NCBI GenBank assembly: GCA_013138735.1
Contig: WTCE01000147.1
Location: 1 to 45,430, forward strand
Direction of reading: 5' to 3'
Source of the DNA: Crocinitomix sp.
Lineage (GTDB): Bacteria; Bacteroidota; Bacteroidia; Flavobacteriales_D; Crocinitomicaceae
DNA: 45,430 bases
The notes beneath the pieces were generated by a model. The model was not told the origin of the DNA. It made no database searches and worked only from the letters and a program-made list of their open reading frames with translations. Every line of letters starts with the position of its first letter. Position 1 is the stretch's first letter. Both the position numbers and the translations under genes were made by a program. Positions 11,786 through 45,107 of this stretch are shown here, in pieces.

Positions 11786-13452
11786 CAACTATGCTCGAGT
11801 GGTGGAATTGGTAGACACGCAAGACTTAAAATCTTGTGTCCTTTGGGACGTGCGGGTTCAAGTCCCGCCTCGAGTACTAGACGGGACAAGTTCAACTTTT
11901 TAGAACTTGTCCCGTTTTTCTTTCCCCGCAAATCCTCCATGAATAAAGGGATTGAAGAAAATAAAAGATTCACGCGCTCGGTTCGATAATGGTGTTTTTT
12001 GTAATCATAGACAATTCCACTAGGAAACACGATTCCTTGAATACGCTTCTTTTCTTCAATATCACCCGAAAGCCATGCTTGCGGGAGTTGCAGCGCATCT
12101 TCAACGGCATTATCTGTTGCTTTTTCAAGGTTCGATAATTTAAACTCCGAATTTTCTATTTCTTCATAAATTGTATTGATCTCATCCTCAAACTGACACT
12201 TGTATTTCAGATATAGGTCGCGCTCAATTTCACCTAAAACAAATCGTCTTTCTATTTTTTCTAAGTCTTGTTCTAGTTTAGCTACTTTCTTATTCAACGC
12301 GATTGTGTCGTTTATACTTTCTTCATGAATTTCTACAAAGGCTTCCATCATCATTGACTTAATAGGGTTTTTCCATTCCTCTGATTCTAATTGATAGCTT
12401 GAAAGAAGATCAACGAAAAGTTGGTGCATTTTTTTTGCGCTTACATTTTCTTTACTCCCAATTCGATTGTTTTTATAATAGAATAGATTCTTTTTCTTAA
12501 CAACATAACCTGTGTAAATTGTTCCGCAACTATCCGCTTTAATGAATTGCTTTAGCGGTAGGTTTTCATCATCCTTATTATAATTGCCCCCGTACTGCTT
12601 TTTTCTAAGGATGCCATTTACTTTTAAGAATGTTTCCTTAGAAACTAATGCAGGGTGATTGCCCTTAATTACTTCATCTGGAATTAAGGAACTCACAATT
12701 AAACCACAATAAAATGGATTTCGGAAATATTCGCTAAAATTTTTCGCTCTTTTCGTCCACCCTTTGGATTTTAATTTTTCGGCTAATTCCGCGTAGGTTA
12801 AATCGTATTCCGCTTTTAGTTCAAATGCGATTTTAAGTAATTCACCTTCTTTTGTTATTGCCAGTTCAGGTGTTTTACGTTTTCCGGGATTTAGATTAAC
12901 GTAACCAAACGGAGTTACACCCGTCCAATAACCTGAACGCAGTTTTCTCTGCATACCATGAACGCAAGACTTTCGTTTATTCTCGTTATCCATCCGCCCC
13001 ATTTCCATATAAATATGCTTTTGGAATTTCCCCGAAGAACTTGTATTATCAACATATTCAGTTGCCGATATTATTTGTATCCCACTTTCTTCTAAATCCA
13101 AATAGGTTTTGCTAATTCCTGTTCGTGAAAATCGCTTAAAACTATAAACAATTATGTAGCCAATATCCTTTCGTCTTTTCACATAGGCAATCATTTCATT
13201 AAATTGCTTCCGATCATCTGTCTTTGCAGATTCATTCGTTGCTCCAAAATAGTTGACAACATCCATTTTATTTTTTACCGCATAGTTTTGGCAAAATTCC
13301 ATTTGTGTCTCCAAAGATGCACCGTCTAGTTGTTCCTTGCTTGAAACTCTTGTATAAATAACACCTTTGGTTCTTTTCGATTTATCAATTTTTGGCTTTT
13401 TCTTTTGGCGCATAAATTGTCCGAATACTTCTAACTCTTTATTCTCTCCCAT
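11785..13452 (-). CDS. Large serine recombinase, C-terminus read through antisense tRNA-Leu
   Basis: A 555-codon frame. Residues 30-180 form the resolvase domain with catalytic Ser37 in VIYTRVSSKEQ and the arginines of YSFKRFSRTG (107, 110). A recombinase domain follows (GYWTGVTPFGY near 172, FRNPFYCGLIV, HPALVSKETF), then a basic region and a coiled coil near 390-460. The last 31 codons (from LVLEAGLEPARPKG) are the complement of tRNA-Leu, with the stop at 11785-11787. Copies R1-R5 carry an in-phase alternative tail, probably the native C-terminus in the circular form. It likely integrates and excises the island. Confidence 0.9.
   Translation of the reverse strand: MGENKELEVFGQFMRQKKKPKIDKSKRTKGVIYTRVSSKEQLDGASLETQMEFCQNYAVKNKMDVVNYFGATNESAKTDDRKQFNEMIAYVKRRKDIGYIIVYSFKRFSRTGISKTYLDLEESGIQIISATEYVDNTSSSGKFQKHIYMEMGRMDNENKRKSCVHGMQRKLRSGYWTGVTPFGYVNLNPGKRKTPELAITKEGELLKIAFELKAEYDLTYAELAEKLKSKGWTKRAKNFSEYFRNPFYCGLIVSSLIPDEVIKGNHPALVSKETFLKVNGILRKKQYGGNYNKDDENLPLKQFIKADSCGTIYTGYVVKKKNLFYYKNNRIGSKENVSAKKMHQLFVDLLSSYQLESEEWKNPIKSMMMEAFVEIHEESINDTIALNKKVAKLEQDLEKIERRFVLGEIERDLYLKYKCQFEDEINTIYEEIENSEFKLSNLEKATDNAVEDALQLPQAWLSGDIEEKKRIQGIVFPSGIVYDYKKHHYRTERVNLLFSSIPLFMEDLRGKKNGTSSKKLNLSRLVLEAGLEPARPKGHKILSLACLPIPPLEHS
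11793..11876 (+). tRNA. tRNA-Leu(UAA)
   Basis: An 84-nt class II tRNA. The anticodon loop CTTAAAA (anticodon TAA) is closed by CAAGA/TCTTG, the variable arm is long, and the T-loop is TTCAAGT. Acceptor GCTCGAG pairs with CTCGAGT with G-U at the first pair; CCA is not encoded. Its 3' end is the integration target of the island, and the serine recombinase frame crosses the whole gene on the other strand. Confidence 0.95.
11862..11877. other. attL-type core at the tRNA-Leu 3' end
   Basis: GTCCCGCCTCGAGTAC, the T-arm/acceptor 3' strand plus the following base, recurs with GGG for GAG at the end of R2-R5 and with a one-base deletion at R1. The shared block stops just after GTAC, where each copy passes into a different terminator. 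This is the expected identity block of site-specific recombination into a tRNA. Confidence 0.75.
11881..11919 (+). terminator. T0, terminator of the tRNA operon brought by unit 1
   Basis: A perfect 13-bp stem (ACGGGACAAGTTC with its complement at 11903-11915) and T run, four bases past the tRNA. On the minus strand it is part of the recombinase coding sequence. Confidence 0.85.
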
Positions 13453-13453
13453 C

Positions 13454-13693
13454 TTATTGCTCTTTTAATTTGTTCAACCGATTCATTTGGCTTAAAATGA
13501 TTCGGGTATATTCCCTTAGTTGGTCTATCACTTTTTCAGCTATCTCGTCTGTTAGATGTTCAAAACCTCTCATTGTTTTGAATCTAGCAACTGTTAGCTT
13601 CTGTTTGCATTTGGCTTTGAATGCTTTTAGCTTTGCCAACTCCTCTTTAATCTTTGCTTTTCTTAGTTCATTTCTTTTCTTTAAATCACTCAT
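13454..13693 (-). CDS. Small helical protein upstream of the recombinase
   Basis: A 79-residue, Lys/Leu-rich, almost wholly helical protein (MSDLKKRNELRKAKIKEELAKL...) with no recognised family. Its stop is one base from the recombinase ATG, so the two are translationally linked in one operon. A role as recombinase accessory or directionality factor is possible from position alone. Confidence 0.65.
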   Translation of the reverse strand: MSDLKKRNELRKAKIKEELAKLKAFKAKCKQKLTVARFKTMRGFEHLTDEIAEKVIDQLREYTRIILSQMNRLNKLKEQ

Positions 13694-13793
13694 TTTAAAT
13701 TTACACTACACGAACGATTTTGGGTTTTCCAATAATCGTACGTTTCCATCTCTACTTGCGCTAGGGCTTCTAGTCGCTTCTCAATTCTAATGA

Positions 13794-13822
13794 TGATTCT
13801 TTACGTGTACGCACGTGAATCA
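13794..13822. repeat. Inverted repeat after the MerR-like gene
   Basis: TGATTC-TTT-ACGTG pairs with CACGT-GAATCA around TACG, directly after the stop of the MerR-like gene. No T run follows on the minus strand, so it may be a weak terminator or a protein-binding site. Confidence 0.5.
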
Positions 13823-14725
13823 TTATTTATGTTTTGTCTTGCGCTTAACGCTGACAATTTTACCTTTTACAGTTTTGTAGGAAATTTCTTGATAACTCCC
13901 TCTTTGAATCAAATCTACCAAACGCCCTTTAGTATCTTTAATATCAATCGTTTCTTCCGTTTCAATTAAGTTAACTTCTCCGTCAACAAATTTTACACTA
14001 AGAGAGTTGATACCACCATCACGGATCAAATCAATTATTTTTGCTTCCTCATCTGTTAAATCTATTCCGCTCTCATTTAGGTTCAACGCATATAAATCTT
14101 CCCTTCCCATAAACTCTGTCACAATATGATTGAGCGGAATGCTTATATAAGGTTGATTCATAATCATAGATGAAGTAAATAAATCTTCCATTGGACTTTC
14201 ATCAAATACAATGCAATTTCCATCCTTTGCAATTGCTAAATGCACATTAGCTTGTGAAAGGATTGTAGAAAAAAGTAGAACTGATAATTTTGTATTACTT
14301 AGATTTACTTTCTTCCTATCATTCTCAACGGCTGCAATGAAGTTCTCAGGCGTTTTAAATGTTTCCTTAATGTCTTTGATAAACATTCTCCAATTTACAT
14401 CTTCCATTTCTTCACTCTCAAATAGGGAGGTATAATGTTCCATCAAATTCATTTCTGACAATAAGTAATTCTTCAATCTCAAAATGGCATGAATTGGTAA
14501 ACCAAACTCACGCAGTTCTTTTACTAATCTCAACCAAACATATTCGATACCATTGTATTTTCTACGGTATTTACTTTTTCGCTCTCTCAAATAAATACCT
14601 GCATTAGACCAATCAAAAGCAGTTTTGGCAGACAATCCTATGTCTGACAATTGAAAACTCTCATCAAACATTACCTCCGTTACCTGTCTGACATCTTCTA
14701 AATGATCCTTAAATTCTTCTTCCAT
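13823..14725 (-). CDS. MerR-like DNA-binding regulator of the element
   Basis: A 300-residue protein whose residues 20-90 read as a MerR-type winged helix (QLSDIGLSAKTAFDWSNAGIYL, then IEYVWLRLVKELREFGLPIHAILRLKNYL). The C-terminal part is not recognised; it repeats two beta-hairpin-like segments (EEAKIIDLIRDGGINSLSVKFVDGE, KGRLVDLIQRGSYQEISYKTVKGK). It sits next to the recombinase operon and two inverted repeats lie in its upstream region, so autoregulation and control of element mobility are plausible. Confidence 0.7.
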   Translation of the reverse strand: MEEEFKDHLEDVRQVTEVMFDESFQLSDIGLSAKTAFDWSNAGIYLRERKSKYRRKYNGIEYVWLRLVKELREFGLPIHAILRLKNYLLSEMNLMEHYTSLFESEEMEDVNWRMFIKDIKETFKTPENFIAAVENDRKKVNLSNTKLSVLLFSTILSQANVHLAIAKDGNCIVFDESPMEDLFTSSMIMNQPYISIPLNHIVTEFMGREDLYALNLNESGIDLTDEEAKIIDLIRDGGINSLSVKFVDGEVNLIETEETIDIKDTKGRLVDLIQRGSYQEISYKTVKGKIVSVKRKTKHK

Positions 14726-16347: not shown

Positions 16348-17214
16348 TTAATCTCTTTCCAATTCTTTAAACCCCTCAATACGCTCTGCGCAAATCTCCA
16401 CTGTCAATTTTAAAAAGGCTTCGGTTTCCTGCTTCCAAAATTCAATCTTACCCATATCCACGGGAAATTCCTTTTCGTTGCGGTAACGCCCTCCGATATA
16501 CGCATAGTTCAATTGGTCAAACAGTTTTGTATGTTCTTCACTTTCATAATGAAAAACACCCTTTAACCGCTTATGAAAACGTACACAACGATCACGCAAC
16601 ACAAATAGGTTATGCTCATGTGGATTATAATGACTGAAAACCATTTCAATAGCAGTATAACACATCTCAATGGTTTGTTGCAAATGAAATGATGCCTCCA
16701 AAAAATAGCTTTTACTAACGCTAAAACCGAAATGGTCATAAAGACGTGTGGCACTTCCGAACCAATCTTCAAAATCTGCTTCTGCAATTTCCCTCCTCCG
16801 TGTCGGAGACAGCCCTTTAAACGAAGCGAAATCATATCGCCCAGAATTAAACAACTCAATACCTTCTTTCTTAATATCAGAATAGAAATACTGATTTTCT
16901 TCCAAGGCTTTATTGACAACACTAATATTAACCACAAGCGTTTGCACAACAATTTCCATATCCTTAAAAGCACCTCTTAATTTAGAAACTACGTGCTTTC
17001 TTCTATCACCACTTTCTACAACGATAAGAATATCAAAATCACTTTTCTTTCCTTGCTCTTTGCCACGTTCAGTTTTGAAATCACCCCTAGCAAATGAGCC
17101 AAATAAAACTATAATGTCAACACGGTGCGTGTCCAAAATCTTTTGTGTGATATGCTCCAAATCGACAATACGCTCTGGCGGAAGATGGGATAGTATTTGT
17201 TTTAGGTCGTTCAT
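16348..17214 (-). CDS. Nucleotidyltransferase-HEPN fusion protein
   Basis: A 288-residue protein. Residues 30-70 hold a MNT-type nucleotidyltransferase motif, LFGSFARGD at 37-45 with the metal-binding DFDILI at 59-64. Residues about 150-285 form a HEPN-like helical domain (LEASFHLQQTIEMCYTAIEMVFSHY, then RDRCVRFH, an Rx4H match to the HEPN RNase motif). In HEPN/MNT systems the two domains are usually separate toxin and antitoxin that AMPylates the toxin; here they are one chain. Confidence 0.8.
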   Translation of the reverse strand: MNDLKQILSHLPPERIVDLEHITQKILDTHRVDIIVLFGSFARGDFKTERGKEQGKKSDFDILIVVESGDRRKHVVSKLRGAFKDMEIVVQTLVVNISVVNKALEENQYFYSDIKKEGIELFNSGRYDFASFKGLSPTRRREIAEADFEDWFGSATRLYDHFGFSVSKSYFLEASFHLQQTIEMCYTAIEMVFSHYNPHEHNLFVLRDRCVRFHKRLKGVFHYESEEHTKLFDQLNYAYIGGRYRNEKEFPVDMGKIEFWKQETEAFLKLTVEICAERIEGFKELERD

Positions 17215-20122: not shown

Positions 20123-21751
20123 ATGGATACAACAAAAGCTGACTTAAAAGAAGAATCTTCATTAACATTATTTTTTTGGTGGTGTGCTGGAGCAGATGCC
20201 GATTTATTGAGACAACTCGACTCTGATAAACAAAGATATTTTTTAATTGGGACAACGGTCTTAATAACCGCACTTTTTGCAGCTATATCAGGAATTTATG
20301 TTTTTTCGTCAGTGTTTCAAAATATACCTCTTGCTGTCATATTTGGTATAATGTGGGGCATGTTAATTTTTACTCTTGATAGATATGTTGTAGCAACAGT
20401 TTCTAGAGGATCGAATTTTACACGAACATTATTGCAACTATTACCTCGTTTTTTGATTTCAATTCTTATCTCGATAGTAATAGCTACTCCATTATCTCTA
20501 AGGCTTTTTGAAGACGAAATTCAAAAGGAACATTCGAAGCAATTTTATGAAGAAATGCTTTCAATTGACATGATATTTGAAAAACAAAAAGCCAATATTG
20601 AAGAACAGATTTCGGCGTTACAAGAAAAAATAGATTTAAAGTTGTATGAATTAAATAAACGAGAAAAAGAATATGAAGATGAGATTATGGGTGTCAATGG
20701 CTCAGGCCTCAGCGGAAGCGGACCAATCGCAGTCTTTAAAAGACAACAATATGAATATGCTAGGCATGACTATAATGATGCCAGAACAACTACCGACTCA
20801 CTTATTACTTCTTTGAACAAACAACTTTTGACTTTTCATGCCGAGTTGAATTCTAGTCGATCATATGTTATTCCCCCAATGACATTTGTTGCTATGTCGC
20901 AGGCATTTGCAGAACTTAAGACAAAAGACTCCACTATAAATTTAATAAGCTTAATGCTAACGCTTTTTATTATGCTCATATCAACTGCTCCAATCGTAGT
21001 TCAAATTTCATCAAGAAAAAGTCTTTATGAGGAATACCTTTCGATTAAAAATAAGATACTGATAAACAAATTTGTTGTAAGTCAGGAAGGGCAGAACAAT
21101 ATGCATGAAGAGTTGAAATCAGAGGTTGAAGAATTAAAAAAGAAGTTAGATGATTTAAGTAAAGATAAGATTAACAAGATGATAGATGAATTGGAGGGAC
21201 AAAAAAAAGAGACTCATCAAAATATCAATTTCCAAATTTATTTTAACCAAATGTTAGACGGACTTTCACAAGAGTCTGATAAGATTGAACAAAAAGCAAA
21301 GGAATTCTATTGGCAAGGAATGGTTTTTAGCATTATGGGGATTCTAACCGCGTTTGGTTTTTTTGTGTTTTGGATTAATTATTTTTCAATAAAAAAATTT
21401 GAACCCTATAACATCATTGAATTAATTTCAGGAACGATTATAATTATAATAATTGAATTTTTAGGTGCTTGGTTTTTAAAACAAAACAAAGAACTTTCTA
21501 AGAAATCGCTACATATTCTAAAAATCAAGTCTACCTTAGATAGATACCTATTAATTTATCTTTCTATTGACGAATTCGCATCTTCTGATACACGTGAAAA
21601 TTATTTGAAACAGCTACTATCAACGCTTGACAAGGATATTCGTTTTCCCACTGAATCATCAACTATTAACGACACAAGTTTTAATCAGGAAGCATTTTCC
21701 ACGATTAGAAATTTGACAGACTCTATAAAAAATCTAACAAACGTAACGTAA
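20123..21751 (+). CDS. DUF4407 membrane protein with coiled coils
   Basis: A 542-residue protein with the DUF4407 start FFWWCAGADADLLRQLDSDKQRYFLIGTTVLITALFAAISG. Membrane helices lie near 40-62, 68-90 and 103-125, then after a coiled-coil domain (about 150-260) one near 272-292, a second coiled coil (320-390), and two near 395-420 and 432-455. DUF4407 proteins are widespread with no settled function. Here it stands alone in a defence-rich unit, so a membrane-effector role is possible. Confidence 0.8.
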   Translation: MDTTKADLKEESSLTLFFWWCAGADADLLRQLDSDKQRYFLIGTTVLITALFAAISGIYVFSSVFQNIPLAVIFGIMWGMLIFTLDRYVVATVSRGSNFTRTLLQLLPRFLISILISIVIATPLSLRLFEDEIQKEHSKQFYEEMLSIDMIFEKQKANIEEQISALQEKIDLKLYELNKREKEYEDEIMGVNGSGLSGSGPIAVFKRQQYEYARHDYNDARTTTDSLITSLNKQLLTFHAELNSSRSYVIPPMTFVAMSQAFAELKTKDSTINLISLMLTLFIMLISTAPIVVQISSRKSLYEEYLSIKNKILINKFVVSQEGQNNMHEELKSEVEELKKKLDDLSKDKINKMIDELEGQKKETHQNINFQIYFNQMLDGLSQESDKIEQKAKEFYWQGMVFSIMGILTAFGFFVFWINYFSIKKFEPYNIIELISGTIIIIIIEFLGAWFLKQNKELSKKSLHILKIKSTLDRYLLIYLSIDEFASSDTRENYLKQLLSTLDKDIRFPTESSTINDTSFNQEAFSTIRNLTDSIKNLTNVT

Positions 21752-34529: not shown

Positions 34530-34630
34530 TTGACTGATAGAGATCTTAATCTTTACGTTTTATTTTCGGAATTTGATCTTATGTTACGGTAAAGAAAATT
34601 GATTAGATCTAAAATTCATTTCAATTCACC

Positions 34631-34688
34631 CCAAACACAACCCAATATCTTCCGCTAAAAAGTTCGATATTTGTCCCGCCTCGGGTAC
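34631..34688. repeat. R3, attR-type site ending unit 3
   Basis: 58-base copy. It differs from R2 in the encoded peptide only by synonymous codons (GCT to GCG, GAG to GAA, GGA to GGG); TGA follows directly. Confidence 0.92.
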
Positions 34689-34693
34689 AGATC

Positions 34694-34727
34694 AAATCCT
34701 CTTGCTATTTTTAGTGAGGGGATTTTT
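34694..34727 (+). terminator. T3, terminator after R3
   Basis: AAATCCTCTTGCTA pairs, with G-U pairs, with TAGTGAGGGGATTT, then a T run. Confidence 0.75.
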
Positions 34728-34761
34728 GATTTATGATAAATTTGAGCGTTCTAAATAAGAT

Positions 34762-36039: not shown

Positions 36040-36203
36040 AAATTTAATAAAAGAAATTCAGGCTGAAATTATTCATCTAATTTCAAATAAACACATAATT
36101 ATTTTTAGGAGTATTATTTCGAAATCTTCTATATAATTATTTCCGAGAAATACTCATTTATTTGGCATTGTGATAACCTAAATCAATTAATTATAAAAAG
36201 GCC

Positions 36204-36250
36204 AACAATTTCTCAACAACTCCTAACAATTTCGAACAACGCTCAACCAG
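36204..36250. promoter_or_regulatory. Helically phased AACAA repeats upstream of lipoprotein A
   Basis: AACAA (last copy AACCA) starts at 36204, 36215, 36225, 36235 and 36245, spacings 11, 10, 10, 10. On the other strand this is TTGTT, matching the phased TTG repeats upstream of the paralogous gene at 38483. Candidate operator for the response regulator of the same unit. Confidence 0.5.
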
Positions 36251-36327
36251 AATAATCTCTCGAAATTCATGGAAAATAATTGACAAGGTGGGTGCACCAA
36301 TTCCTGTCAGAACTAAAACAAAATATC

Positions 36328-36492
36328 ATGAGACAAGCAAAAATCATGATAGCTGTTCTGACCGTGCTATGTGCACTATCGTTCAGCTGTCAAAAAGAAG
36401 AAATCAAAATTAACAAACCTAAAAGAGGTTTAAATGTCCAGCCTCCGCCGTCAGAATCAGAATCGGGTGAGTTAACCCCCAATGGTTTATAA
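36328..36492 (+). CDS. Small lipoprotein A (KRGLN-PPPSESES tail)
   Basis: A 54-residue protein from ATG 36328 (an in-frame extension back to 36280 would spoil the signal peptide). Signal MRQAKIMIAVLTVLCALSFS with Cys21, then QKEEIKINKPKRGLNVQPPP and SESES, ending PNGL. It is a paralogue of lipoprotein B at 38483: both tails carry KRGLN(V/I), PPPSESES and PNG. Likely exported and lipidated; a secreted signal, inhibitor or sensor ligand is possible. A terminator follows. Confidence 0.75.
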   Translation: MRQAKIMIAVLTVLCALSFSCQKEEIKINKPKRGLNVQPPPSESESGELTPNGL

Positions 36493-36515
36493 CCTTGGGA
36501 TTGCTTTAAAGCATG

Positions 36516-36547
36516 GGAAGGGAGTTGAGATTCCCTTCCTTTTTTTA
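36516..36547 (+). terminator. Terminator of lipoprotein A
   Basis: GGAAGGGA pairs with TCCCTTCC, followed by a T run. Confidence 0.75.
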
Positions 36548-36563
36548 TTAGAAATTTCGAGTT

Positions 36564-38339
36564 TTAAATTAACTCTAAACGAAAGGCCATTTCTAATGAC
36601 TTCCATGTTACAGGACAAAGCCAAGTTAATGGATTATCCTCTCCCTGAATATCCGCAATAGATTCATCATTTTCTCCAACTATTTGTCTAAAGGGTTTTT
36701 GAAAATCTCCCAACCAGTCCGAATAGAATCTTTTTTCAAGCTGATTCTTATTTTTTGGATCATTGATTCTACGCTTTTTCAGCTCAATGTCCGCCCCAAA
36801 AATCTTAAATGCGGATTTTGGAATGTTAGATAGACTAATTGATTCCTGTGCATTTTTATTTCCCTTAACGAGTTCACCTAACTTTCCATCCTTCTCAAAT
36901 TTTTCTCTCAAAAAATCAATTGAAATGAGCATTGGAGGCCTGCGCATCAAAAAGAGGTCAGATTCATGCATTTCCCCATCAAGAATATAATCTTCATCCT
37001 TCATATTAAACATCAATAATCGTAATATCTCAATCCCATATTCAAACGGATTGATATTAAAGATAATTTCACGGCAGTAATCATGCTCTTGATCCACTTC
37101 CAAATCGAAAGGGGTTGGTATTGTCTTAATCCGTACTTTGTTTTTAGAATCTTTATCAAAACCAATTCTTAGACCGTCTTGCTGACCTCTTAAACGGTGT
37201 TGTTTGATGTAAAAAGAAGGGCTTAAAAAAGAATCTTTTGCGGTCATCTCTGGCAAATAGAATTGTTTTTGAATCATTGCACGTCTTTCTAACGGATGAT
37301 CGGAGAACAGATTAATCTCTTCTGAAAACTCTCTAAAAATCACACGATTTAGGTTTTCTCTTTCAGCTTTGTTTTCTGAAGCTCCGTTTGCAATATTCCA
37401 TCCTAGAGGAGCAATGTCTCTAAAAAAAGTAAGTAGCCACTTTTTATTTTGATAATTAACAATTGGGATCGCTCCACCAGACGCCCAACGATATGGATGA
37501 TTTTTTAACTTGAAGATTGATCCGTTACTTTCAGCATAGAGAAAGTTTTTCAGTTTCTCATTAAATGAAAAGAGTTCTTTTCGTTCCTTTTCAGAACGGC
37601 TAAACCAAGATCTTATAAATTGTTTCCCTCTATTATTATATATTCCGTAAGGTTCCTTTTTAGTAGAAATTTTAAGTACGATTCTATCAGGTTCTTTTTC
37701 AATTTCAATATTTTCGGTTAGTAATAATTGAATTGCAAAGGCTTTATTCTTCCAATAAGGATCATTTAGGTCGATATCGTTTATCAAAGCTAGAACGGGT
37801 TTATTAGAATTAGTACTTGTTTTTGACTCGGCAATTAACCAAAAGTTTGAGTCCAATTCAGTCTGTTGATCAATTGTTTCATAAAATTGTCCTAATTCAC
37901 TTAAATCTGCCTCTTGCTCTTCCACCTCCTCTATGTCAGTTTCAAAATCAGGATGACAGTTTTCTTTTTTTATTTCATAGGCAAATTTTAACGAACTAAA
38001 ATACGCGTCAATTTCGTTTTGAAACTCTTCAACGAATTCTTCGAAATACAAAATCCCTAACCCCTTATCTTCCGAATAAAATTGCAGTAAAACTTCAACG
38101 GTATCTTTCATATCGGGTCGCTTCCCTGTATCCCCTCTCAAATAAGCAAATGTTCTGCTTAAAGTTTTGGCACTTGGTGTTTTTTCTGTTTCTATCCCAC
38201 TGAGCATGGAATGTAATCGTTCAATTTCTTTTGACCTCACTATTGGAGCATCATCCAGATACAATTTTCTCAATTGATTCAGGAGGTAAACTAGAGCTGG
38301 TATTTGATGATCTGCCAAATATCTTTCGTTGTATTTCAT
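36564..38339 (-). CDS. Nudix-like domain protein
   Basis: A 591-residue protein. Residues 1-120 are helical and may bind DNA or a partner (SAKTLSRTFAYLRGDTGKRPDMKDTVEVLL). The centre has a Nudix-box-like stretch: GWNIANGASENKAERENL then NRVIFREFSEEINLF, with the REFSEE core of the REUxEE motif. The C-terminal third is unrecognised. If active it would cleave a nucleoside-diphosphate-linked substrate. It sits between the two small lipoprotein genes on the opposite strand. Confidence 0.65.
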   Translation of the reverse strand: MKYNERYLADHQIPALVYLLNQLRKLYLDDAPIVRSKEIERLHSMLSGIETEKTPSAKTLSRTFAYLRGDTGKRPDMKDTVEVLLQFYSEDKGLGILYFEEFVEEFQNEIDAYFSSLKFAYEIKKENCHPDFETDIEEVEEQEADLSELGQFYETIDQQTELDSNFWLIAESKTSTNSNKPVLALINDIDLNDPYWKNKAFAIQLLLTENIEIEKEPDRIVLKISTKKEPYGIYNNRGKQFIRSWFSRSEKERKELFSFNEKLKNFLYAESNGSIFKLKNHPYRWASGGAIPIVNYQNKKWLLTFFRDIAPLGWNIANGASENKAERENLNRVIFREFSEEINLFSDHPLERRAMIQKQFYLPEMTAKDSFLSPSFYIKQHRLRGQQDGLRIGFDKDSKNKVRIKTIPTPFDLEVDQEHDYCREIIFNINPFEYGIEILRLLMFNMKDEDYILDGEMHESDLFLMRRPPMLISIDFLREKFEKDGKLGELVKGNKNAQESISLSNIPKSAFKIFGADIELKKRRINDPKNKNQLEKRFYSDWLGDFQKPFRQIVGENDESIADIQGEDNPLTWLCPVTWKSLEMAFRLELI

Positions 38340-38354
38340 CTTCTTAAAATTTTG

Positions 38355-38405
38355 GACAACTGATTTTGCACGTTAGTTGTCTTGGTTGACTTTGGTCGTC
38401 TTTGA
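38355..38405. promoter_or_regulatory. Phased TTG repeats and inverted repeat upstream of lipoprotein B
   Basis: TTG begins at 38366, 38377 and 38386, with TCG at 38396 (spacings 11, 9, 10), and GACAAC (38355-38360) is the inverse of GTTGTC (38376-38381). The array abuts the -33 element of the promoter at 38401, the usual place for an activator. Confidence 0.5.
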
Positions 38406-38431
38406 ACACCCCTACTATAGCCATAGATTTG
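38401..38431 (+). promoter_or_regulatory. Promoter of lipoprotein B
   Basis: TTTG at 38401-38404, 19-base spacer, TAGATTTG at 38424-38431: an exact consensus promoter 52 bases before the ATG at 38483. Confidence 0.75.
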
Positions 38432-38482
38432 TTGAAACAAACAAGCTGAGTGAGCGCTCGCAAAGCATAAAATTTATTTATT

Positions 38483-38641
38483 ATGAAAATTGAAAAGCTA
38501 GTAAAAATAGCTTTGGTAGTAGCGCTATGCTTCGGAACCATTGCTTGTGAGAAAGAAGTCTTTAATCCAAAAAGGGGGTTGAATATCGATCCGCCACCAA
38601 GCGAATCTGAGTCACCAATCCTAAACCCGAATGGTGGTTGA
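38483..38641 (+). CDS. Small lipoprotein B, paralogue of A
   Basis: A 52-residue protein. Signal MKIEKLVKIALVVALCFGTIA with Cys22, then EKEVFNPKRGLNIDPPP and SESES, ending NPNGG. The signal peptides of A and B differ in sequence while KRGLN, PPPSESES and PNG are kept, so the mature tail is the conserved part. It has a consensus promoter and its own terminator and lies tail-to-tail with the response regulator gene, 27 bases apart. A 141-codon frame on the other strand here is a shadow. Confidence 0.75.
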   Translation: MKIEKLVKIALVVALCFGTIACEKEVFNPKRGLNIDPPPSESESPILNPNGG

Positions 38642-38660
38642 TTATGACAGTTTAATAGAT

Positions 38661-38689
38661 GGGGGGAGCTACACACTTCCTCCATTTTT
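38661..38689 (+). terminator. Terminator of lipoprotein B
   Basis: GGGGGGAG pairs with CTTCCTCC (two G-U pairs), then ATTTTTA. It overlaps the end of the response regulator gene. Confidence 0.6.
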
Positions 38690-39352
38690 ATCTTCTTGTA
38701 AAAATGGAGGAATTCGATCTTCAATATGTTCATAATTTGATTTTTTATATTGGATATACTTAGCCACAAGTTCCGGAGTGTTTATTGCACCTATTTTCAC
38801 TCTTAAATTCATGGTATGACTAACAATTGTATTTTCGCTTAAGTGGAGTAGTAATGCGATCTCTTTTTTGATTTTTCCTTGTGCCAATAAGTGCAATACT
38901 TGAAATTCTCTTTCTGATACCTTTCTCCATTTCCCAAGTTGCCGAATAGATTGTAATTCTTGATCTAAATATTGCCGACCATTATATACTGATTCAACTG
39001 CTTTCAATATTTCAGAATCATCAATGAGTTTGCTCAAATAACCATCAACTTTTACCGTATTAAGTAAATAGTTTGCATAATCAACCTTTATATGTGAACT
39101 GACAATGATTATTTTTAATATTGGAAATTCTTTTTTCCATTCTTTAGCTAACTGAAAACCGTCATATTCGTTTGAATTCAAGTCAAGATCAATAAAAGCT
39201 AAATGAATGTTATTTTCATCTAAAATTAGGCGAGCTTTTTCCTTCTTCTTAGATTTATAAATATCCTCAATTAACGGACTTAAAAGCAATGTGTAATTCA
39301 ATCCTTTTAAATAAATGGGGTTATCATCAATTAACAATACGTTATACTTCAT
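38669..39352 (-). CDS. LuxR/NarL-type response regulator
   Basis: A 227-residue protein. The receiver domain has the acidic pair Asp9-Asp10 in LLIDDNPIY, phospho-acceptor Asp55 in LAFIDLDLN, and the SK pair near 107-108 in GYLSKLI. The LuxR-type HTH is at about 148-205 (SEREFQVLHLLAQGKIKKEIALLLHLSENTIVSHTMNL). It overlaps the histidine kinase by 4 bases, so they form a cognate pair. Likely targets are the phased repeats upstream of lipoproteins A and B. Confidence 0.92.
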   Translation of the reverse strand: MKYNVLLIDDNPIYLKGLNYTLLLSPLIEDIYKSKKKEKARLILDENNIHLAFIDLDLNSNEYDGFQLAKEWKKEFPILKIIIVSSHIKVDYANYLLNTVKVDGYLSKLIDDSEILKAVESVYNGRQYLDQELQSIRQLGKWRKVSEREFQVLHLLAQGKIKKEIALLLHLSENTIVSHTMNLRVKIGAINTPELVAKYIQYKKSNYEHIEDRIPPFLQEDKNGGSV

Positions 39353-41241
39353 TTCAAATGCGATTTAATAGGGAAATAACCTTTAACTACAGTTCCATTT
39401 TTTGAAGAACTAATGGCGAGTTTCCCGTTTAACGTTTTCATTCGCTCCTCCATATTTTGAATTCCTATTCCAGATTGATTTGTATCAGAAAAACCATTTC
39501 CATTATCAGAAATAGAAAAATTTATTCGACTTTTTTTTGAACTAATTTCAATTTTTATTCGGTTCGAAAAAGTATGTTTTTCAATGTTTGTGTGGATCTC
39601 CTGAATAATGGCATAAAAATTAGTTTGTGCGGAAAGGGAAAGTTGATTAAGTAATAATGGAAATTCAGTCTTACGTTGTATTTCAATCTTATGAAAATGC
39701 TCAAATTCTGATAAGAAATTATCCAAAAGTTCGGTAAACTTGATTTTTTCCAGCCGTTTTCCAATTGGTGACAGTCGGTGAGCCACTAATCGAATTTGCT
39801 CTGATACATGTTGTAAGTCATTTGCGATTTCTCCTATTATTTCTGTGGTTGCCTCGTCATTTGATTTTACCGCTTGCACCATGAGCCTTATACCATTCAA
39901 GTTAGAACCCAAAATATCATGAAGGTCTCGACCCATACTTTCTTTCAATCGGCTCTGAACCTCAAGGCTTTTTAATGCTTCTCTTCGTTTTCGTTTCTGA
40001 TAGAAATTCCAGCTAGCTAAGCCAAGTATTAAAGCTATTAATGCAACAATAATCAAAATTAAATTTCTAATGTAAATTGCTCGTTCTTGTCTATCAATTA
40101 TTATCGACTTTTCTTGATTAGATTCTGTTAACCACTTTTCTTCTGCTTCAAGTTTTTTTAGTCTTTCTTCCTTTCGTTTTGTTTCAAAAGTTTCATGAAG
40201 AAGCATTACCTGTTCCATTTTATTTACGTCATAATATTCTGAATAAAGCGTAGCATATTCATTTGCTTTCAAGTAAGCTAGATTATATTTCATTTGTTTC
40301 GCATAAAGCAAAGCTTCGTTTTCCAACGTTCTTAACAATACTGGTGAATCACTAATCCAATTGTATGTTCTAGCCGAATCAAGATACAGTTCAGCTTTAT
40401 CGAACTTATCGAGTTCTATATAATTCCCTGCAATTTCGTTGAAGGAGTATGCCAATGATAGACTATCATTGAACTGTCGTTTAATATTTAAAGCAGATAT
40501 ATTCTCTTCTAACGACTTTTCAAAATCTCCTTCTAAGTAACTCACAATTGCCAAATTACTCAACGTGATAGCTTGTCCTTTCACCAAATTAAGTTCCTTT
40601 TTTAGAGCTAAAGAATTGTTGTAGTATAGTCTGGCTGAATCCAATTGTTCTTGGTTTTTATACACGTTACCTATGTTATTATATAAGTTGCCGATAAATT
40701 CAAACTGTTCTTGCTGTTTTGCAATTACAAATGCGAACTGATAATACTTAATTGCTTCATTGTAGTTTTTTAGCAATTCTTGAATTTGAGCAAGTGCATT
40801 ATAAGCTTTACCTAAAGATGCTTTATCTTCAAGTACTTTAAACACATCAATGGCATTAATAAAGGCATTGGCGGCAAGTTCATAATTGCCATAAGATTTG
40901 TAGATTGAACCTAAATTGAATAACGCATTTGCCTTTTCCTTTTTAGCGTTGTGAAATTCATATAATGAAATGGCGATTTGAATATTTTCTATTCCCTTAT
41001 CGGTATGATCTAACAAGTACGCTACTAAACCTAAGTTATGAAAAGCATCAGCAGCTACTTTTGAAGTAGTATCGGTAATTAGTATTTCTTCAAAACAGGT
41101 TGAGGCACTGTCTAAATTTCCATTACCCCAATATTCTAGACCTTTTTCCAAAAGATTTTCACCATTATTTGAAACAGCAAAACCGTTTTGTGATAACAAC
41201 AAAAATATCAATAGAAATCGGAAGAAATAAATAAGTCTCAT
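39349..41241 (-). CDS. TPR sensor histidine kinase (HisKA_3 type)
   Basis: A 630-residue protein. Signal peptide 1-22, a periplasmic TPR array to about 370 (YEFHNAKKEKANALFNLGSIYKSYGNYELAANAF and similar units), a coiled coil, one membrane helix near 390-412, then the kinase: HisKA_3 with RDLHDILGSNLNGIRL (phospho-His) and HATPase with NIEKHT, DNGNGFSD and GIGIQNMEERMKTLNG. This architecture is common in Bacteroidota. The periplasmic TPRs would be placed to bind an exported peptide or lipoprotein. Confidence 0.92.
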   Translation of the reverse strand: MRLIYFFRFLLIFLLLSQNGFAVSNNGENLLEKGLEYWGNGNLDSASTCFEEILITDTTSKVAADAFHNLGLVAYLLDHTDKGIENIQIAISLYEFHNAKKEKANALFNLGSIYKSYGNYELAANAFINAIDVFKVLEDKASLGKAYNALAQIQELLKNYNEAIKYYQFAFVIAKQQEQFEFIGNLYNNIGNVYKNQEQLDSARLYYNNSLALKKELNLVKGQAITLSNLAIVSYLEGDFEKSLEENISALNIKRQFNDSLSLAYSFNEIAGNYIELDKFDKAELYLDSARTYNWISDSPVLLRTLENEALLYAKQMKYNLAYLKANEYATLYSEYYDVNKMEQVMLLHETFETKRKEERLKKLEAEEKWLTESNQEKSIIIDRQERAIYIRNLILIIVALIALILGLASWNFYQKRKRREALKSLEVQSRLKESMGRDLHDILGSNLNGIRLMVQAVKSNDEATTEIIGEIANDLQHVSEQIRLVAHRLSPIGKRLEKIKFTELLDNFLSEFEHFHKIEIQRKTEFPLLLNQLSLSAQTNFYAIIQEIHTNIEKHTFSNRIKIEISSKKSRINFSISDNGNGFSDTNQSGIGIQNMEERMKTLNGKLAISSSKNGTVVKGYFPIKSHLK

Positions 41242-41306
41242 TGGGTGGGTTAATATGCTTCAATTTAAATATTATTTGGCAGTTCCGCACATAACCAATT
41301 AAAATT

Positions 41307-41322
41307 TGGTCAAAAATGACCA
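41307..41322. promoter_or_regulatory. Palindrome between kinase and outer-membrane gene
   Basis: TGGTCA-AAAA-TGACCA is a perfect inverted repeat in the divergent region, 66 bases before the kinase start and 90 before the outer-membrane gene start. It is a candidate operator. Confidence 0.45.
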
Positions 41323-41411
41323 TAGTTTTTAGTTTGAATGTTCCGTTACTTTGGAAACTGAAAAACGATTTTTATACACACCCAAAATCAATTAAATCTA
41401 ACCCAACAGAT

Positions 41412-41993
41412 ATGCCATTCAAAACTATCTTCTTCCTGCTTAGCATTAATCTCTTCCTAATATGCTTTAATTCTTATGCTCAAACAAAACACAATCCTGG
41501 AGGTGAAGCAGTTAGTGTACCACTGGGAGATGGAGAATTGTTTCCTTATGCTGACATTATTACAACACCGCTTATGGGCTACACAATTAGCCCAAGAGGT
41601 TCCAACATTCCTACTCATTTTCTAATTGCGAATGGTTTAAAGGCAAATTTAGGTATTGAGGTTGGTTTACTTTATCCAGTTTTCACAACGACTGGAAATG
41701 CAAGGGCATTCATATCAGGAGGTTACTCCTCACATTTTATTGGATTTGAATACGGTGGTGCGATTATTAACATTGGGGGAAATACTATTTCTAATCACAG
41801 ACATACCCGATTTTTTTTCGGCGCAAAATTTATTCCAATAAAGCAATTAAAATTTCTTTCGCTTGGGGCGTCATTTGGCTATGGGACGATCAAGGCAAAT
41901 TTTTCGACAAAAAATATTAATGGAAAAATAAAGGCTAGAGCTGGAGATGTCTCTTTTAGCTTGTCATTCGGAATTAATCACTTTGTAAACTAA
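41412..41993 (+). CDS. Outer-membrane beta-barrel-like protein
   Basis: A 193-residue protein from ATG 41412, chosen because MPFKTIFFLLSINLFLICFNSYAQ is a clean signal peptide; the frame is open back to 41316. The mature part alternates as in small barrels (ARAFISGGYSSHFIGFEYGGAI, FLSLGASFGYGTI) and ends in SLSFGINHFVN. No specific family. First gene of a same-strand run to 43643. Confidence 0.7.
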   Translation: MPFKTIFFLLSINLFLICFNSYAQTKHNPGGEAVSVPLGDGELFPYADIITTPLMGYTISPRGSNIPTHFLIANGLKANLGIEVGLLYPVFTTTGNARAFISGGYSSHFIGFEYGGAIINIGGNTISNHRHTRFFFGAKFIPIKQLKFLSLGASFGYGTIKANFSTKNINGKIKARAGDVSFSLSFGINHFVN

Positions 41994-42003
41994 AAGAACC
42001 ATT

Positions 42004-42321
42004 ATGAAATGTATTTATTCAATATTAATTCTATTTCTTTTCTACTCTTGTAATGATGATAATTATGTTCCTGTTGTTGCACATATAATTGAAAAGGGAA
42101 CCCAAAATCCAGTTCATAACGCAATTGTAACTTTTAATGCGCTAGAAGAGTTCAAATCCGATACTATTGGAGAAATAAGAACATCCTACAATTTACACCA
42201 CCACTTGGCAGATTCAATTTCTTTTTATGTAAAAAAAGACGGATACATCTCCACAAACTTCTCTTTCATTATTGGCAATACGCAAAAAGATGTATATGTC
42301 CTTGAGTTTGAAAAAGAGTAA
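42004..42321 (+). CDS. Small lipoprotein with carboxypeptidase-regulatory-like fold
   Basis: A 105-residue protein with lipobox FYSC (Cys16). VAHIIEKGTQNPVHNAIVTFNALE followed by HHHLADSISFYVKKDGYISTNF resembles a beta-sandwich surface domain. It starts 10 bases after the preceding gene. Confidence 0.65.
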   Translation: MKCIYSILILFLFYSCNDDNYVPVVAHIIEKGTQNPVHNAIVTFNALEEFKSDTIGEIRTSYNLHHHLADSISFYVKKDGYISTNFSFIIGNTQKDVYVLEFEKE

Positions 42322-42350
42322 AAATTTAATGTAAAAACTAAAAAACAAAT

Positions 42351-42887
42351 ATGAGTAAATTGAAAATTATTATTCCTTTATTCACCCTGATAGTATTCAG
42401 TTCATGCGGTGAAACTAATTGTCCAAAATGTAATGGAGTTGGACATTTTGTAGAAAATTACGACACAATAGAGACATATATAGATACCATTAAATTTGAA
42501 GTTCCAATTGATCGTATCGTGAAAACAAACTGCAGGAGTTGTAATGGAATCGGTCGTAAAGATTGTCAATTCGTAGGAAGAGCTACAACAATTTTGGGGT
42601 TTTCAACAACGTACGACTGCATCAACGGAACGCTTGAAGTAAGTCACAATAATAATCCTTATGGTGGAAGTCACTCAGGTAAAAAATGTCAAGAATGCAA
42701 TGGTTTGGGAGATTATAAATGCGGCACGTGTAACGGAATTGGCTACAAAAGCATAAAGAAAACTGAATACGAAACCCAAACCAAATATGAAACAAAAATA
42801 AAAAGTGTCACAAAAGAAAAAGAAATCGTAGATGAATACTGCAATGGAACAGGTGTTGTGGGCAAATTCAGTGAAATGTTTAAATAA
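42351..42887 (+). CDS. Lipoprotein with DnaJ-type CxxCxGxG zinc-binding motifs
   Basis: A 178-residue protein with lipobox FSSC (Cys19). It carries CPKCNGVG (24-31), CRSCNGIG (about 62), CQECNGLG (about 113), CGTCNGIG (about 124) and a broken fifth, YCNGTG (about 165). Four complete motifs are what the DnaJ zinc-finger domain has, but there is no J domain and the protein is exported, so this is not a DnaK co-chaperone. A periplasmic zinc-binding or disulfide-related role is possible. Confidence 0.75.
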   Translation: MSKLKIIIPLFTLIVFSSCGETNCPKCNGVGHFVENYDTIETYIDTIKFEVPIDRIVKTNCRSCNGIGRKDCQFVGRATTILGFSTTYDCINGTLEVSHNNNPYGGSHSGKKCQECNGLGDYKCGTCNGIGYKSIKKTEYETQTKYETKIKSVTKEKEIVDEYCNGTGVVGKFSEMFK

Positions 42888-42920
42888 AATGAATAATGAA
42901 CACTTTAAATTTATCTAATT

Positions 42921-43253
42921 ATGAAGACAGCTAGAAGCCTAAATATTGCCTTATTATTAGCTTGTATTGCAGGTGGCGCATTTTACTTTTTTCAATACGA
43001 GTCACCTGAATTAATTATCTTATTAATAGTGCAATCAATTGCCATACTATTCTTAATTATAGCACTCCTTTCGAAAAAACTAGTAAATCAAAAAATATTC
43101 GGGATTATTCCGTACATACTTTTCTTAACGGATATAGGCTATGTGGCATTCCTCGCTTCTGAATCTCAATATTTAGGCTTGATAACGAATTTGACGGCCC
43201 CAACGCTTTTAGCGGTGATTGGCCTAGTCAAACTTATCCGTGTTAAATCTTAA
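42921..43253 (+). CDS. Small membrane protein
   Basis: A 110-residue protein with four hydrophobic segments (about 7-25, 30-50, 58-75, 85-105). No family recognised. Part of the 41412-43643 run. Confidence 0.65.
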   Translation: MKTARSLNIALLLACIAGGAFYFFQYESPELIILLIVQSIAILFLIIALLSKKLVNQKIFGIIPYILFLTDIGYVAFLASESQYLGLITNLTAPTLLAVIGLVKLIRVKS

Positions 43254-43259
43254 TTAACT

Positions 43260-43643
43260 ATGTTAGCAATTTCATTACACAATTATAGAGGCGCAAATGT
43301 TAATGGCGCAAGGATATTCTTAGACAATTCTGGAGGAGATTACCTCGCTACTACGATCAAAAATCATGGTTCAACAATTCATTTAAAGTTTAGCCAATTA
43401 ACAATGGATTCCGTTATTGGAATGATCGAACTTTATACAACTCATGGAAAAGTAATCATTAGACAGAAAATTGAATACTTCGAAATTGGAGATTTTGAGA
43501 TATATTTGAATGATCGAAATACTGTTTACAAAGGTCAATCTGAAAATTTCAAAACTCAAAAATCCAATGGTTGTTTAAACCCATTTCTTATAATTGCAAT
43601 AATAATATTCATAATTATAATGGTATTAACGGAGGGAGGGTGA
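43260..43643 (+). CDS. Hypothetical protein with C-terminal membrane anchor
   Basis: A 127-residue protein, beta-rich for ~100 residues, ending in one membrane helix (NPFLIIAIIIFIIIMVLTEGG). It starts 6 bases after the preceding stop. No family recognised. Confidence 0.6.
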   Translation: MLAISLHNYRGANVNGARIFLDNSGGDYLATTIKNHGSTIHLKFSQLTMDSVIGMIELYTTHGKVIIRQKIEYFEIGDFEIYLNDRNTVYKGQSENFKTQKSNGCLNPFLIIAIIIFIIIMVLTEGG

Positions 43644-43758
43644 ATTATCTTTCTCTTCACTAACTGTATTGCCAATTAGATTAATGATCGAATAACCAAG
43701 TTTAAACCATAGGTTAAGTCTGCTATTCATCACTCATTTCACATAATAAAACTCGTAC

Positions 43759-43953
43759 TTAAAAAAATCGATCATAGCTACTGTCGTTTGACTTAACTCC
43801 TTTTAACTTCCTCACAGCTTTAATCGTTTTGCTTGAATCAATTGTCTTCCCTGACTTATTTCCAGTATATATTTTACTTCCAGTATTCGAATCTTTTACG
43901 TAGTGCTTGCCATCATTGTCACACCCCTCAGAATATGTGCTATATCTACCCAT
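43759..43953 (-). CDS. Small polar protein
   Basis: A 64-residue protein from ATG 43953 (an upstream TTG at 43980 is less likely). Gly/Ser/Lys-rich, GRYSTYSEGCDNDGKHYVKD, no family recognised. Last gene before R4. Confidence 0.5.
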   Translation of the reverse strand: MGRYSTYSEGCDNDGKHYVKDSNTGSKIYTGNKSGKTIDSSKTIKAVRKLKGVKSNDSSYDRFF

Positions 43954-44080
43954 AATTTGTATTTTCTCTTTAAGGTACAACTTTTTTTACTTTTATGCAA
44001 AATTGCGATTATATAGGATACATGCTATATCCTCTTCTCTCGCTCATTAAACGTTATTTCACAAAGAATACATATTCATA

Positions 44081-44138
44081 CCAAACACAACCCAATATCC
44101 TCAGTCAAAAAGTTCGATATTTGTCCCGCCTCGGGTAC
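44081..44138. repeat. R4, attR-type site ending unit 4
   Basis: 58-base copy. The minus strand encodes PEAGQISNFLTEDIGLCLV with TGA directly after. Confidence 0.92.
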
Positions 44139-44177
44139 AAAAGCCTCTGAAACGTATGTTTTAGAGGCTTTTTTTGG
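44139..44177 (+). terminator. T4, terminator after R4
   Basis: AAAAGCCTCT pairs with AGAGGCTTTT, with an inner AAAC/GTTT helix, followed by a T run. Unrelated in sequence to T1-T3. Confidence 0.85.
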
Positions 44178-44336
44178 TTTTTGGTGCTGAATAATTACTA
44201 TTTATTTTGGGATAAGACGATTCACGTTGCCAACGCAGACTAGTTTAGGTTATATACAATTCCTCCAAAAAACACAATTTGTTGTAATCTTCGTTTTTCT
44301 TGTAAATCGTTAGATAACCATTATTAAAATTAGCAA

Positions 44337-44639
44337 TTAAGACTTTTTTAAGATTAGCTTTTTCGGGTCTTGATGATTATTCCAAAATCGTAACAATTCA
44401 ACTTTATCTTTTCTAACTTGATAAAATAAATTAATCTCCTTGGTTACTGGAACTGTATGAATATTTTGTTTGTAGTTGAATCTTCTAAACGTTTTGGGAC
44501 TTTCTTTAATAATCTGAAGTAGAGCATCAGTTTTAAAAATAAACGCTGATGCCTCAGACTCTGTCCATTCGTCAAGCAGAAATTCAATATTTTCCCAGTA
44601 ATCAATTTGAGCAGGTTTTGACCAAATTAGTTCAATCAT
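44337..44639 (-). CDS. RelE/ParE-superfamily toxin
   Basis: A 100-residue protein starting MIELIWSKPAQIDYWENIEFLLDEW, the classical ParE/RelE N-terminus, with FRRFNYKQNIHTVPVTKEINLFYQV and LLRFWNNHQDP at the end. Such toxins act on gyrase or ribosome-bound mRNA; the subgroup cannot be fixed here. It overlaps the antitoxin stop by one base. Confidence 0.85.
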   Translation of the reverse strand: MIELIWSKPAQIDYWENIEFLLDEWTESEASAFIFKTDALLQIIKESPKTFRRFNYKQNIHTVPVTKEINLFYQVRKDKVELLRFWNNHQDPKKLILKKS

Positions 44640-44869
44640 TATTTAAAAAGTTTGGGGAACTTTTTTTGAGTCTCACTCATCATTTGAGTATGAGAAGTTC
44701 CACCTTCATCTTTTAATGATTTTATAGATTCATCCAAAGCCTTTTTTAAATCATCAGTTAGTTCTATTTCATTGTCGCTATTTGACTCTAATTTGACATA
44801 ATCAAGCGTTCTAATGAAATTTAAGAAAGCAACGGCCTTACTATCTTGTATGTTTAACGATATTTTCAT
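44639..44869 (-). CDS. Antitoxin partner of the ParE/RelE toxin
   Basis: A 76-residue protein from ATG 44869. The frame continues to a TTG at 44902, but that codon lies in the -7 box of the promoter, so the longer form is rejected. Short beta start (MKISLNIQDSKAVAFLNFIRTLDYVKLE), then an acidic helical part that would wrap the toxin. Overlapping antitoxin-toxin order supports the pair. Confidence 0.8.
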   Translation of the reverse strand: MKISLNIQDSKAVAFLNFIRTLDYVKLESNSDNEIELTDDLKKALDESIKSLKDEGGTSHTQMMSETQKKFPKLFK

Positions 44870-44899
44870 ATTCTCTATATCAAACCAAAATTTATTACT

Positions 44900-44929
44900 C
44901 AAAGATACGAAAAAAGCATTTTGTACAAA
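44900..44929 (-). promoter_or_regulatory. Promoter of the toxin-antitoxin operon
   Basis: On the minus strand TTTG (44926-44929), 18-base spacer, TATCTTTG (44900-44907); ATG 31 bases downstream of the -7 box. Confidence 0.7.
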
Positions 44930-45049
44930 AATTTATTTCGATAAGACCCTTGCCAAGTGAATTAAACGTATCTGTATTGATAAGTCTAATCTTGACGTTT
45001 AAGTTAAAACACTATTTCTAACAAGAATATTTTATAGATTCATTTCCAC

Positions 45050-45107
45050 CCAAACACAACCTAATATCCTCTGCCAAAAAGTTCGATATTTGTCCCGCCT
45101 CGGGTAC
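45050..45107. repeat. R5, attR-type site ending unit 5
   Basis: 58-base copy. The minus strand encodes PEAGQISNFLAEDIRLCLG; the frame runs ten more codons to TAG. Last copy seen in the window. Confidence 0.92.

Follow-up and report, generated by a model that had tools for sequence, protein, structure and literature searches.

The 33.2 kb that follow a tRNA-Leu(UAA) gene in a Crocinitomix sp. contig are probably an array of tandem units inserted at the 3' end of this tRNA, in which one element encoding a large serine recombinase (LSR) lies beside the tRNA and hitch-hiking passengers, U2 to U5, lie behind it. The stretch analyzed, called the window here, is 45,430 nucleotides long (GCA_013138735.1, WTCE01000147.1) and is the whole of contig C122 in a 6.84 Mb genome. 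Five sites, R1 to R5, close five successive units, U1 to U5, of about 20.1, 1.2, 1.5, 9.5, and 1.0 kb, the sizes already given correctly by the original prediction, which was made from the letters alone. In the proposed mechanism, the LSR would join attP (P arm, core, and P' arm) to the attB of the tRNA, and after integration P' would lie next to the tRNA, with the P arm, seen as R, at the far end of the element. As far as the openly licensed literature goes, this is a new family: it belongs to Bacteroidota, uses several tRNA targets, carries single-gene passengers that include Shedu, and appears to have its attachment (att) site inside the serine integrase gene. No description of it was found in that literature by title or abstract start.

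A repeat search of the window returned five direct-repeat copies of 62 nt, at 31915, 33085, 34622, 44072, and 45041, all in the same orientation, the later four being 84 to 92% identical to the first. The site was matched five times in the whole genome (E of 1e-17 to 5e-24), with no sixth copy in the 6.84 Mb, since the next match (E of 0.7) is at chance level; this rules out a chance repeat and bears out the five near-identical sites first proposed. The sites span 57 to 62 nt and are placed on the forward strand at 31922-31980 (R1), 33093-33151 (R2), 34630-34688 (R3), 44081-44138 (R4), and 45049-45107 (R5, the distal end of the array, 323 bp before the contig stops), R2 to R5 resting on both the repeat and the genome search. 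R1 is a degenerate P half-site plus core, its motif having one changed base and its core being one base short, which the original prediction did not mention. The first account had each site end in a displaced 3' end of tRNA-Leu followed by a terminator. The second part holds, as a terminator-like hairpin is seen by eye 3' of every R site, but the first does not hold as a full account. A purely displaced tRNA end is rejected as incomplete because GTCCCG, in the block left of GTAC in R, is mirrored by CGGGAC at 11882-11887 in the arm after the tRNA, and because in tRNA-Met arrays R and the tRNA have only a few bases in common; where R resembles the tRNA end, part of the resemblance comes from the P arm of the recombinase. 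Beyond this genome, an exact 20-mer of R occurs in 13 stretches of GTDB contigs and has no match in IMG/VR; one of the 13, an Omnitrophota stretch (L076), lacks a recognizable core and is probably a chance match. The R site, in part or whole, is matched in 16 of 240 genomes of the family at E 0.01, own genome counted, and by eye these matches have the half-site in common (roughly CTC, then several bases, then CAAAAAGTTCGATATTTGT) and differ in their cores.

The inserted state of the array is established by an empty site in G046, a relative of the Crocinitomix group, where tRNA-Leu(UAA) runs straight into the DNA found after R5 in the window. Positions 45092-45227 match G046 L197 5376-5241 at 90.4%, the match starting inside the tRNA-like block of R5. 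When the window flanks are joined, their alignment to G046 is unbroken across GTAC and the terminator; the sequence that directly follows the tRNA in the window, by contrast, can be aligned only with gaps scattered through it. Consequently, 11878-45107 is inserted DNA with its junctions at the GTAC core, as the original prediction had expected. The target gene (11793-11877, forward strand, by ARAGORN) is continuous with the native flank in G046, the crossover is taken to lie within its last bases, GTAC at 11874-11877, and the chromosome originally next to it is at 45108-45227 (forward strand), which matches G046 just past its tRNA-Leu.

Unit U1 (11878-31980) is the LSR element and ends in R1. 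Its recombinase gene (11785-13452, reverse strand) encodes 555 aa with the Pfam domains Resolvase (PF00239, 1.2e-21) and Recombinase (PF07508, 1.6e-8), the combination of catalytic and recombinase domains that characterizes large serine recombinases of about 450 to 700 aa. In translation the frame is intact, and in its YTRVS motif S37, which we take to be the catalytic serine, is invariant across 11 aligned homologues. The frame stays open across P' and the core and continues as antisense of the tRNA. Immediately after the tRNA lie the P' arm and terminator hairpin of this element (11878-11919, forward strand, the right side of attL), and this arm mirrors the P arm of R with a score of 15 (z of 7.9; 0 of 500 shuffles as high). 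No such P mirror is found in the sequences to the right of R1-R5 (shuffle fractions of 0.18 to 0.84). Since P' mirrors R, the most plausible reading of R in the window is as the P arm at the far end of the U1 element, and canonical attP x attB joining explains U1.

LSR homologues occur at E 1e-70 in 50 of 399 genomes of the order and, by profile at 1e-80, in 12 of 395 genomes across the phylum. A tRNA gene lies within 200 bp of the LSR end at 12 of 20 LSR loci, four viral contigs being among the 20. R-type sites were found on long contigs beyond the LSRs of G049 (36.4 and 23.8 kb, two elements) and G060 (25.8 kb), and weaker ones 27 to 29 kb beyond those of G058:C3 and G052:C11. A free phage or plasmid form of the LSR is not supported: 36 phage records and 1 plasmid record match it, all distantly (23 to 29% identity among the matches listed, 15 of the 36). 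In IMG/VR, a single-protein query gave no confirmed LSR relative and a profile query gave four, none with evidence of being the window element in free form. A second LSR is present in the window genome (G000:C97:24349-25923, L064); it is 38% identical to the first and overlaps tRNA-Arg(acg), and its element shares a nucleotidyltransferase/HEPN region with U1 at about 69% DNA identity over 905 bp.

The remaining units are built differently. Among the open reading frames (ORFs) scanned, U2-U5 contain no recombinase family; their near ends have an ordinary tRNA-type terminator and no P mirror, and their far ends have a P arm. Only U1 has an intact LSR together with a matching P' arm, U2-U4 have neither, and U5 retains a broken scrap of an LSR 3' end, so U2-U5 look like cis-mobilizable passengers. 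The serial insertion put forward in the original prediction is thus upheld as stacking, by the empty site and by arrays elsewhere, and not as five units each moving independently; because four of five units lack a working recombinase and a matching P', hitch-hiking is at least as likely as five independent arrivals. The scrap in U5 (44249-44320, reverse strand, by tblastn and profile) is identical to residues 460-483 of the window LSR (P0001) at 15 of 24 positions (tblastn 1.8e-7; profile 1.4e-8), is broken by stops, and has the same orientation as in U1 at a similar distance from the core. A search for LSR C termini in 28 LSR-less units found a remnant in two, U5 and a tRNA-Leu(gag) unit of G123, where 58 residues lie near the core in the orientation of an intact gene. 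These remnants indicate that both were once LSR elements, U5 having apparently lost most of its recombinase. In G123, one terminator sequence follows tRNA-Leu(gag) and two R sites (C122 and C133; L060, L059); together with the tRNA-proximal LSR remnant, this suggests that these may be stacked, decayed LSR elements.

The R sites could be remnants of successive islands that are now fixed, with units formed by deletion and no present mobility; the degenerate R1, the broken LSR 3' end in U5, and units of just 106 to 185 bp fit such a history. So does the genus: the tRNA-Leu region was matched in all nine genomes, own included, and the R motif in the right orientation is absent from the seven assessable relatives over 0.4 to 18 kb downstream of tRNA-Leu (the eighth, G042, was left out because its contig stops 9 bp past the tRNA). 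Nevertheless, R2-R5 remain close in sequence, the recombinase frame of U1 is intact, and two genomes, G186 and G188, differ by material ahead of a 99.68% identical stretch, a near-identity that suggests recent events. We therefore regard a fossil array as quite unlikely.

The latter two genomes belong to a comparison at a tRNA-Met locus of one genus. There, G193 has no unit and G186 carries two, A and B; about 0.8 kb past the distal R of G186 has no match in G193, and the comparison is not base-clean at its far end. In G188, 4080 bp that reach the tRNA 3' end match G186, and ahead of this G186-like stretch stands another element, whose tRNA end, on a second contig, bears a P'-like arm. In G221, an LSR element at the tRNA is followed by homologues of B and A in reversed order. 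Two LSR elements of 26.8 and then 15.0 kb stand in tandem at tRNA-Met in G641, which belongs to another family. G854, a one-contig genome, has at tRNA-Met an LSR that shares 97.7% identity with the outer LSR of G641 and six R-type sites at intervals of 2.1, 0.7, 2.3, 1.8, and 2.3 kb, with a seventh R-type match past a second tRNA-Met; only matches with an S-N pair in the tail were counted. Of the five units bounded by the six sites, one encodes HicA- and HicB-like proteins. The arms of these sites (G854:C1:2176495-2185612, L274) are of two kinds, and five of the sites are followed by near-identical terminators. The empty, partly filled, and reordered arrays anticipated in relatives were accordingly found, an empty site at tRNA-Leu in G046 and reordered, empty, two-unit, and longer arrays at tRNA-Met, and they support stacking.

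How the passengers arrived can be read in two ways. In the first, which we prefer, the left end of the LSR element would recombine with a distal R instead of R1, so that element and passengers would be excised together, and later loss of the element alone would leave the passengers at the new tRNA. We infer this route of excision, co-mobilization, and transfer from the arrangement of sites. In the second, each unit would be a mobile circle (P arm, core, and terminator) inserted singly at the tRNA by an LSR acting in trans, much as in an integron. Many units of 1 to 2 kb, with one or two genes and no LSR in the stretch examined, do stand behind a tRNA, and the order that units A and B have in G186/G188 is reversed in G221. 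Such insertion would nonetheless require attR-type x attB-type recombination, and characterized serine integrases, according to one source, join no pair of sites except attP and attB unless an additional factor is present (PMC3783163). Moreover, the LSR element is tRNA-proximal wherever both kinds of unit are seen (the window, G221, and G854; G188 by its P'-like arm only). Both points favor co-excision for U2-U5, and insertion of single circles appears unlikely.

Several observations weigh against the reading of an LSR element with co-mobilized passengers. Neither a circle nor an excision event was observed, nor any transfer gene, and the U1 proteins scanned include no relaxase or conjugation family. 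The mirror between P and P' is significant in only two of seven LSR-type units (the window and one of G049) and is not significant in the arms of G641; symmetry as a general rule failed in the other five. No convincing R-type site was found in the stretches examined beyond the LSRs of G241 (three), G061, and G058:C2, and the weak motif matches there, judged by eye to be chance, score like the accepted sites of G058:C3 and G052. G868, with nearly the same LSR as G854, has no R-type site by the S-N pattern used. The front element of G188 sits on a separate contig, with no LSR found at its tRNA end, and the between-genome comparisons are between species, with one genome each. Among the 28 LSR-less units, 26 have no LSR C-terminal remnant. 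Finally, two R-ended units carry genes of the phage integrase family, that is, tyrosine integrases (L069 3193-4269 and L074 4037-5185). If a tyrosine integrase and not the LSR had made the R sites, the tRNA-like block would be the usual overlap of a tRNA island; a Riemerella tRNA-Arg island that encodes a tyrosine integrase is described as containing a repeat composed of the tRNA end and a terminator (PMC6764341). As queries, however, the two integrases match only L069, L074, L052, and L072 among the loci examined from L050 on, R in the window mirrors the arm beside the LSR, and the R arms share the reading frame of the LSR gene, which together make this origin highly improbable. In L069, two additional repeats that resemble tRNA-Arg lie some 160 bp from each other and may be another type of attachment site.

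The frame relation between R arms and the LSR gene extends to a possible coding role. The LSR matches at E 1e-40 or better comprise 46 rows, which correspond to 39 loci (six rows repeat a locus and one further row is the upstream piece of a stop-broken gene). By eye, the LSR frame is open past a conserved valine at the core at all 39 C-terminal ends. Because attP appears to lie within the 3' end of the LSR gene, each R half-site would encode a possible C-terminal tail of about 20 residues. Translation of R arms from the core commonly yields V-x-x-x-G/S-(Q/E)-I-S-N-(F/L)-L-x-E-D, in frames that usually run 14 to 39 codons from I to stop. From 76 candidate R sites, 45 fit a peptide pattern and 36 remained after removal of near-duplicates. 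None of the 36 has a stop in the six codons past the pattern, where shuffling gives 13.5 such sites on average and no value as low in 5000 shuffles (indicative only, as the sites are related), and the other two frames have 14 and 10 sites with a stop (five codons each). The spacing between SN and ED changes by whole codons, with 3, 4, and 2 residues at 33, 5, and 4 sites and 3 sites unassigned. A GTA or GTG codon near the core is in phase at 34 of the 45 sites, absent there at 9, and out of phase only at 2; part of this agreement is geometry, because the distance between core and motif is mostly constant. In G641, the inner LSR is stop-free through the P arm of the outer element to ...SVALTGQFSNHFINDLKILG, and the distal arm of the inner element itself encodes VAGSIQLSNRFFDDFNEVLRLVS. 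Provided that both elements are rightly delimited, G641 would be a natural tail exchange by stacking.

R half-sites thus look like the last ~20 codons of an LSR. In a tentative extension of the model, attP would lie inside the integrase gene, integration would swap its last ~20 codons for antisense tRNA, and a second element arriving in front would supply a new tail; passengers would be kept open-framed, since the distal R would complete the integrase gene in a composite circle. Alternatively, the tails would be non-coding, the half-site being kept as DNA only and the open frame being a by-product. This alternative agrees with the near-invariance of the core-proximal part, a trait expected of a binding site, and with the mostly fixed spacing just described, the 11 of 45 sites without an in-phase GTA or GTG near the core, and frames broken in R1, in one G049 site, and in one of the six G854 sites. 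The lack of stops, the whole-codon indels between the two conserved blocks, and the continuous reading of the G641 LSR through such an arm speak against it, and we consider non-coding tails possible but doubtful. If the tails are coding, arrays would exchange integrase tails along with defense and toxin-antitoxin cargo, and stacking could switch on a displaced integrase.

Composite islands of the staphylococcal cassette chromosome (SCC) are built by ccr recombinases at rlmH. The family described here is similar in its serine recombinase, its serial insertion at the 3' end of a gene, and its composite islands, and differs in having tRNA-Leu as the target. The likeness to SCC drawn in the original prediction stands as an analogy only, as the recombinase scores 62.4 bits against an NCBIfam CcrB cut-off of 900. 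Integrons likewise consist of small cassettes in an array, each cassette having a single site, with the recombinase at one end; their recombinase is a tyrosine recombinase and the one here is a serine recombinase, and no tyrosine integrase was found among the window ORFs scanned, attC-type sites not having been searched for. Also related are the ssrA islands of Dehalococcoides, described with DsiB/DsiA serine recombinases and tandem accretion at an RNA gene (PMC3146451). They share a CcrB-like serine recombinase beside an RNA gene, tandem islands, and repeats of the RNA gene end, and 15 islands without an integration module were suggested to be cis-mobilizable. They differ in the tmRNA target and in the reductive dehalogenases of their cargo, and the available text of that report does not mention a recombinase tail in the repeats (PMC3146451).

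The cis-mobilizable elements (CIMEs) of Streptococcus salivarius, as presented in the accessible part of their description (PMC7563491), are likewise framed by att sites and lack recombination genes. Similarly, U2-U5 are framed by R1-R5 and have no intact recombination or transfer genes among the ORFs scanned. MicroCIMEs of 130 to 220 bp resemble the 106 to 185 bp units of this family, and in streptococcal composites, too, decayed units lie farthest from the target gene (PMC7563491). Those CIMEs, in contrast, derive from integrative and conjugative or integrative mobilizable elements, with tandems at rpmG, rpsI, fda, and rplL (PMC7563491), whereas here derivation from an LSR element is seen in two units only; within the window, U5 traces to such an element by its remnant and U2-U4 show none. 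For the tail, the nearest counterparts are archaeal suicidal integrases, in which attP lies inside the integrase gene, integration alters the gene, and a second related element may restore it (PMC8371274). These are tyrosine recombinases, and the bacterial serine recombinase here would lose only its last ~20 codons. In the text available, the review calls self-disrupting recombinases exclusively archaeal (PMC8371274). If the tail reading is true, this family would be a bacterial serine-recombinase counterpart to them, with control of the integrase tied directly to stacking.

With one recombinase and very small cassettes, such arrays would offer a route for stacking, reordering, and losing defense genes such as Shedu at the tRNAs of Bacteroidota, and the R half-site is a sequence signature for finding further cassettes. 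Among the 28 delimited units, 22 have an ORF of at least 60 aa and 6 (106 to 648 bp) have none; the latter include the smallest units, of 106 to 185 bp, at L147 24-209, L148 7577-7733, L149 9953-10059, and L176 8848-9012. Pfam was run on at least one protein in 17 of the 22 ORF-bearing units, and toxin-antitoxin or defense-type families were found in 8 of these 17 (Shedu, D12 methyltransferase, zeta toxin, Fic in three, nucleotidyltransferase, and AbiEii), a count that is descriptive, without a control set, and includes some homologous units.

In the window, the first 11.7 kb are ordinary-looking chromosome ending in polyphosphate kinase, Ppx/GppA, tRNA-Gly, and tRNA-Leu(UAA). Besides the LSR, U1 encodes MerR-like (13823-14725), nucleotidyltransferase/HEPN (16348-17214), DUF4407 (20123-21751), LRAT-like (23768-24187), STAND-like ATPase (24805-28971), and FRG-domain (31005-31886) proteins, its other proteins having no clear family match. 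U2 (31981-33151) has an ORF at 32050-32991 (reverse strand) with no family match, and U3 (33152-34688) carries Shedu SduA at 33318-34529 (forward strand; Pfam SduA_C 2.6e-26, PADLOC SduA 5.9e-66). U4 (34689-44138) encodes a response regulator (38669-39352), a TPR histidine kinase (39349-41241), and several proteins without a clear match. The two small ORFs of U5 (44139-45107), at 44337-44639 and 44639-44902 (both reverse strand), have no clear family and are toxin-antitoxin-like by layout only. The nucleotidyltransferase/HEPN gene of U1 is found again, at 68 to 83% DNA identity, in the vicinity of LSRs or R sites of G046, G045, and G000:C97, and it may therefore be part of the element backbone rather than cargo.

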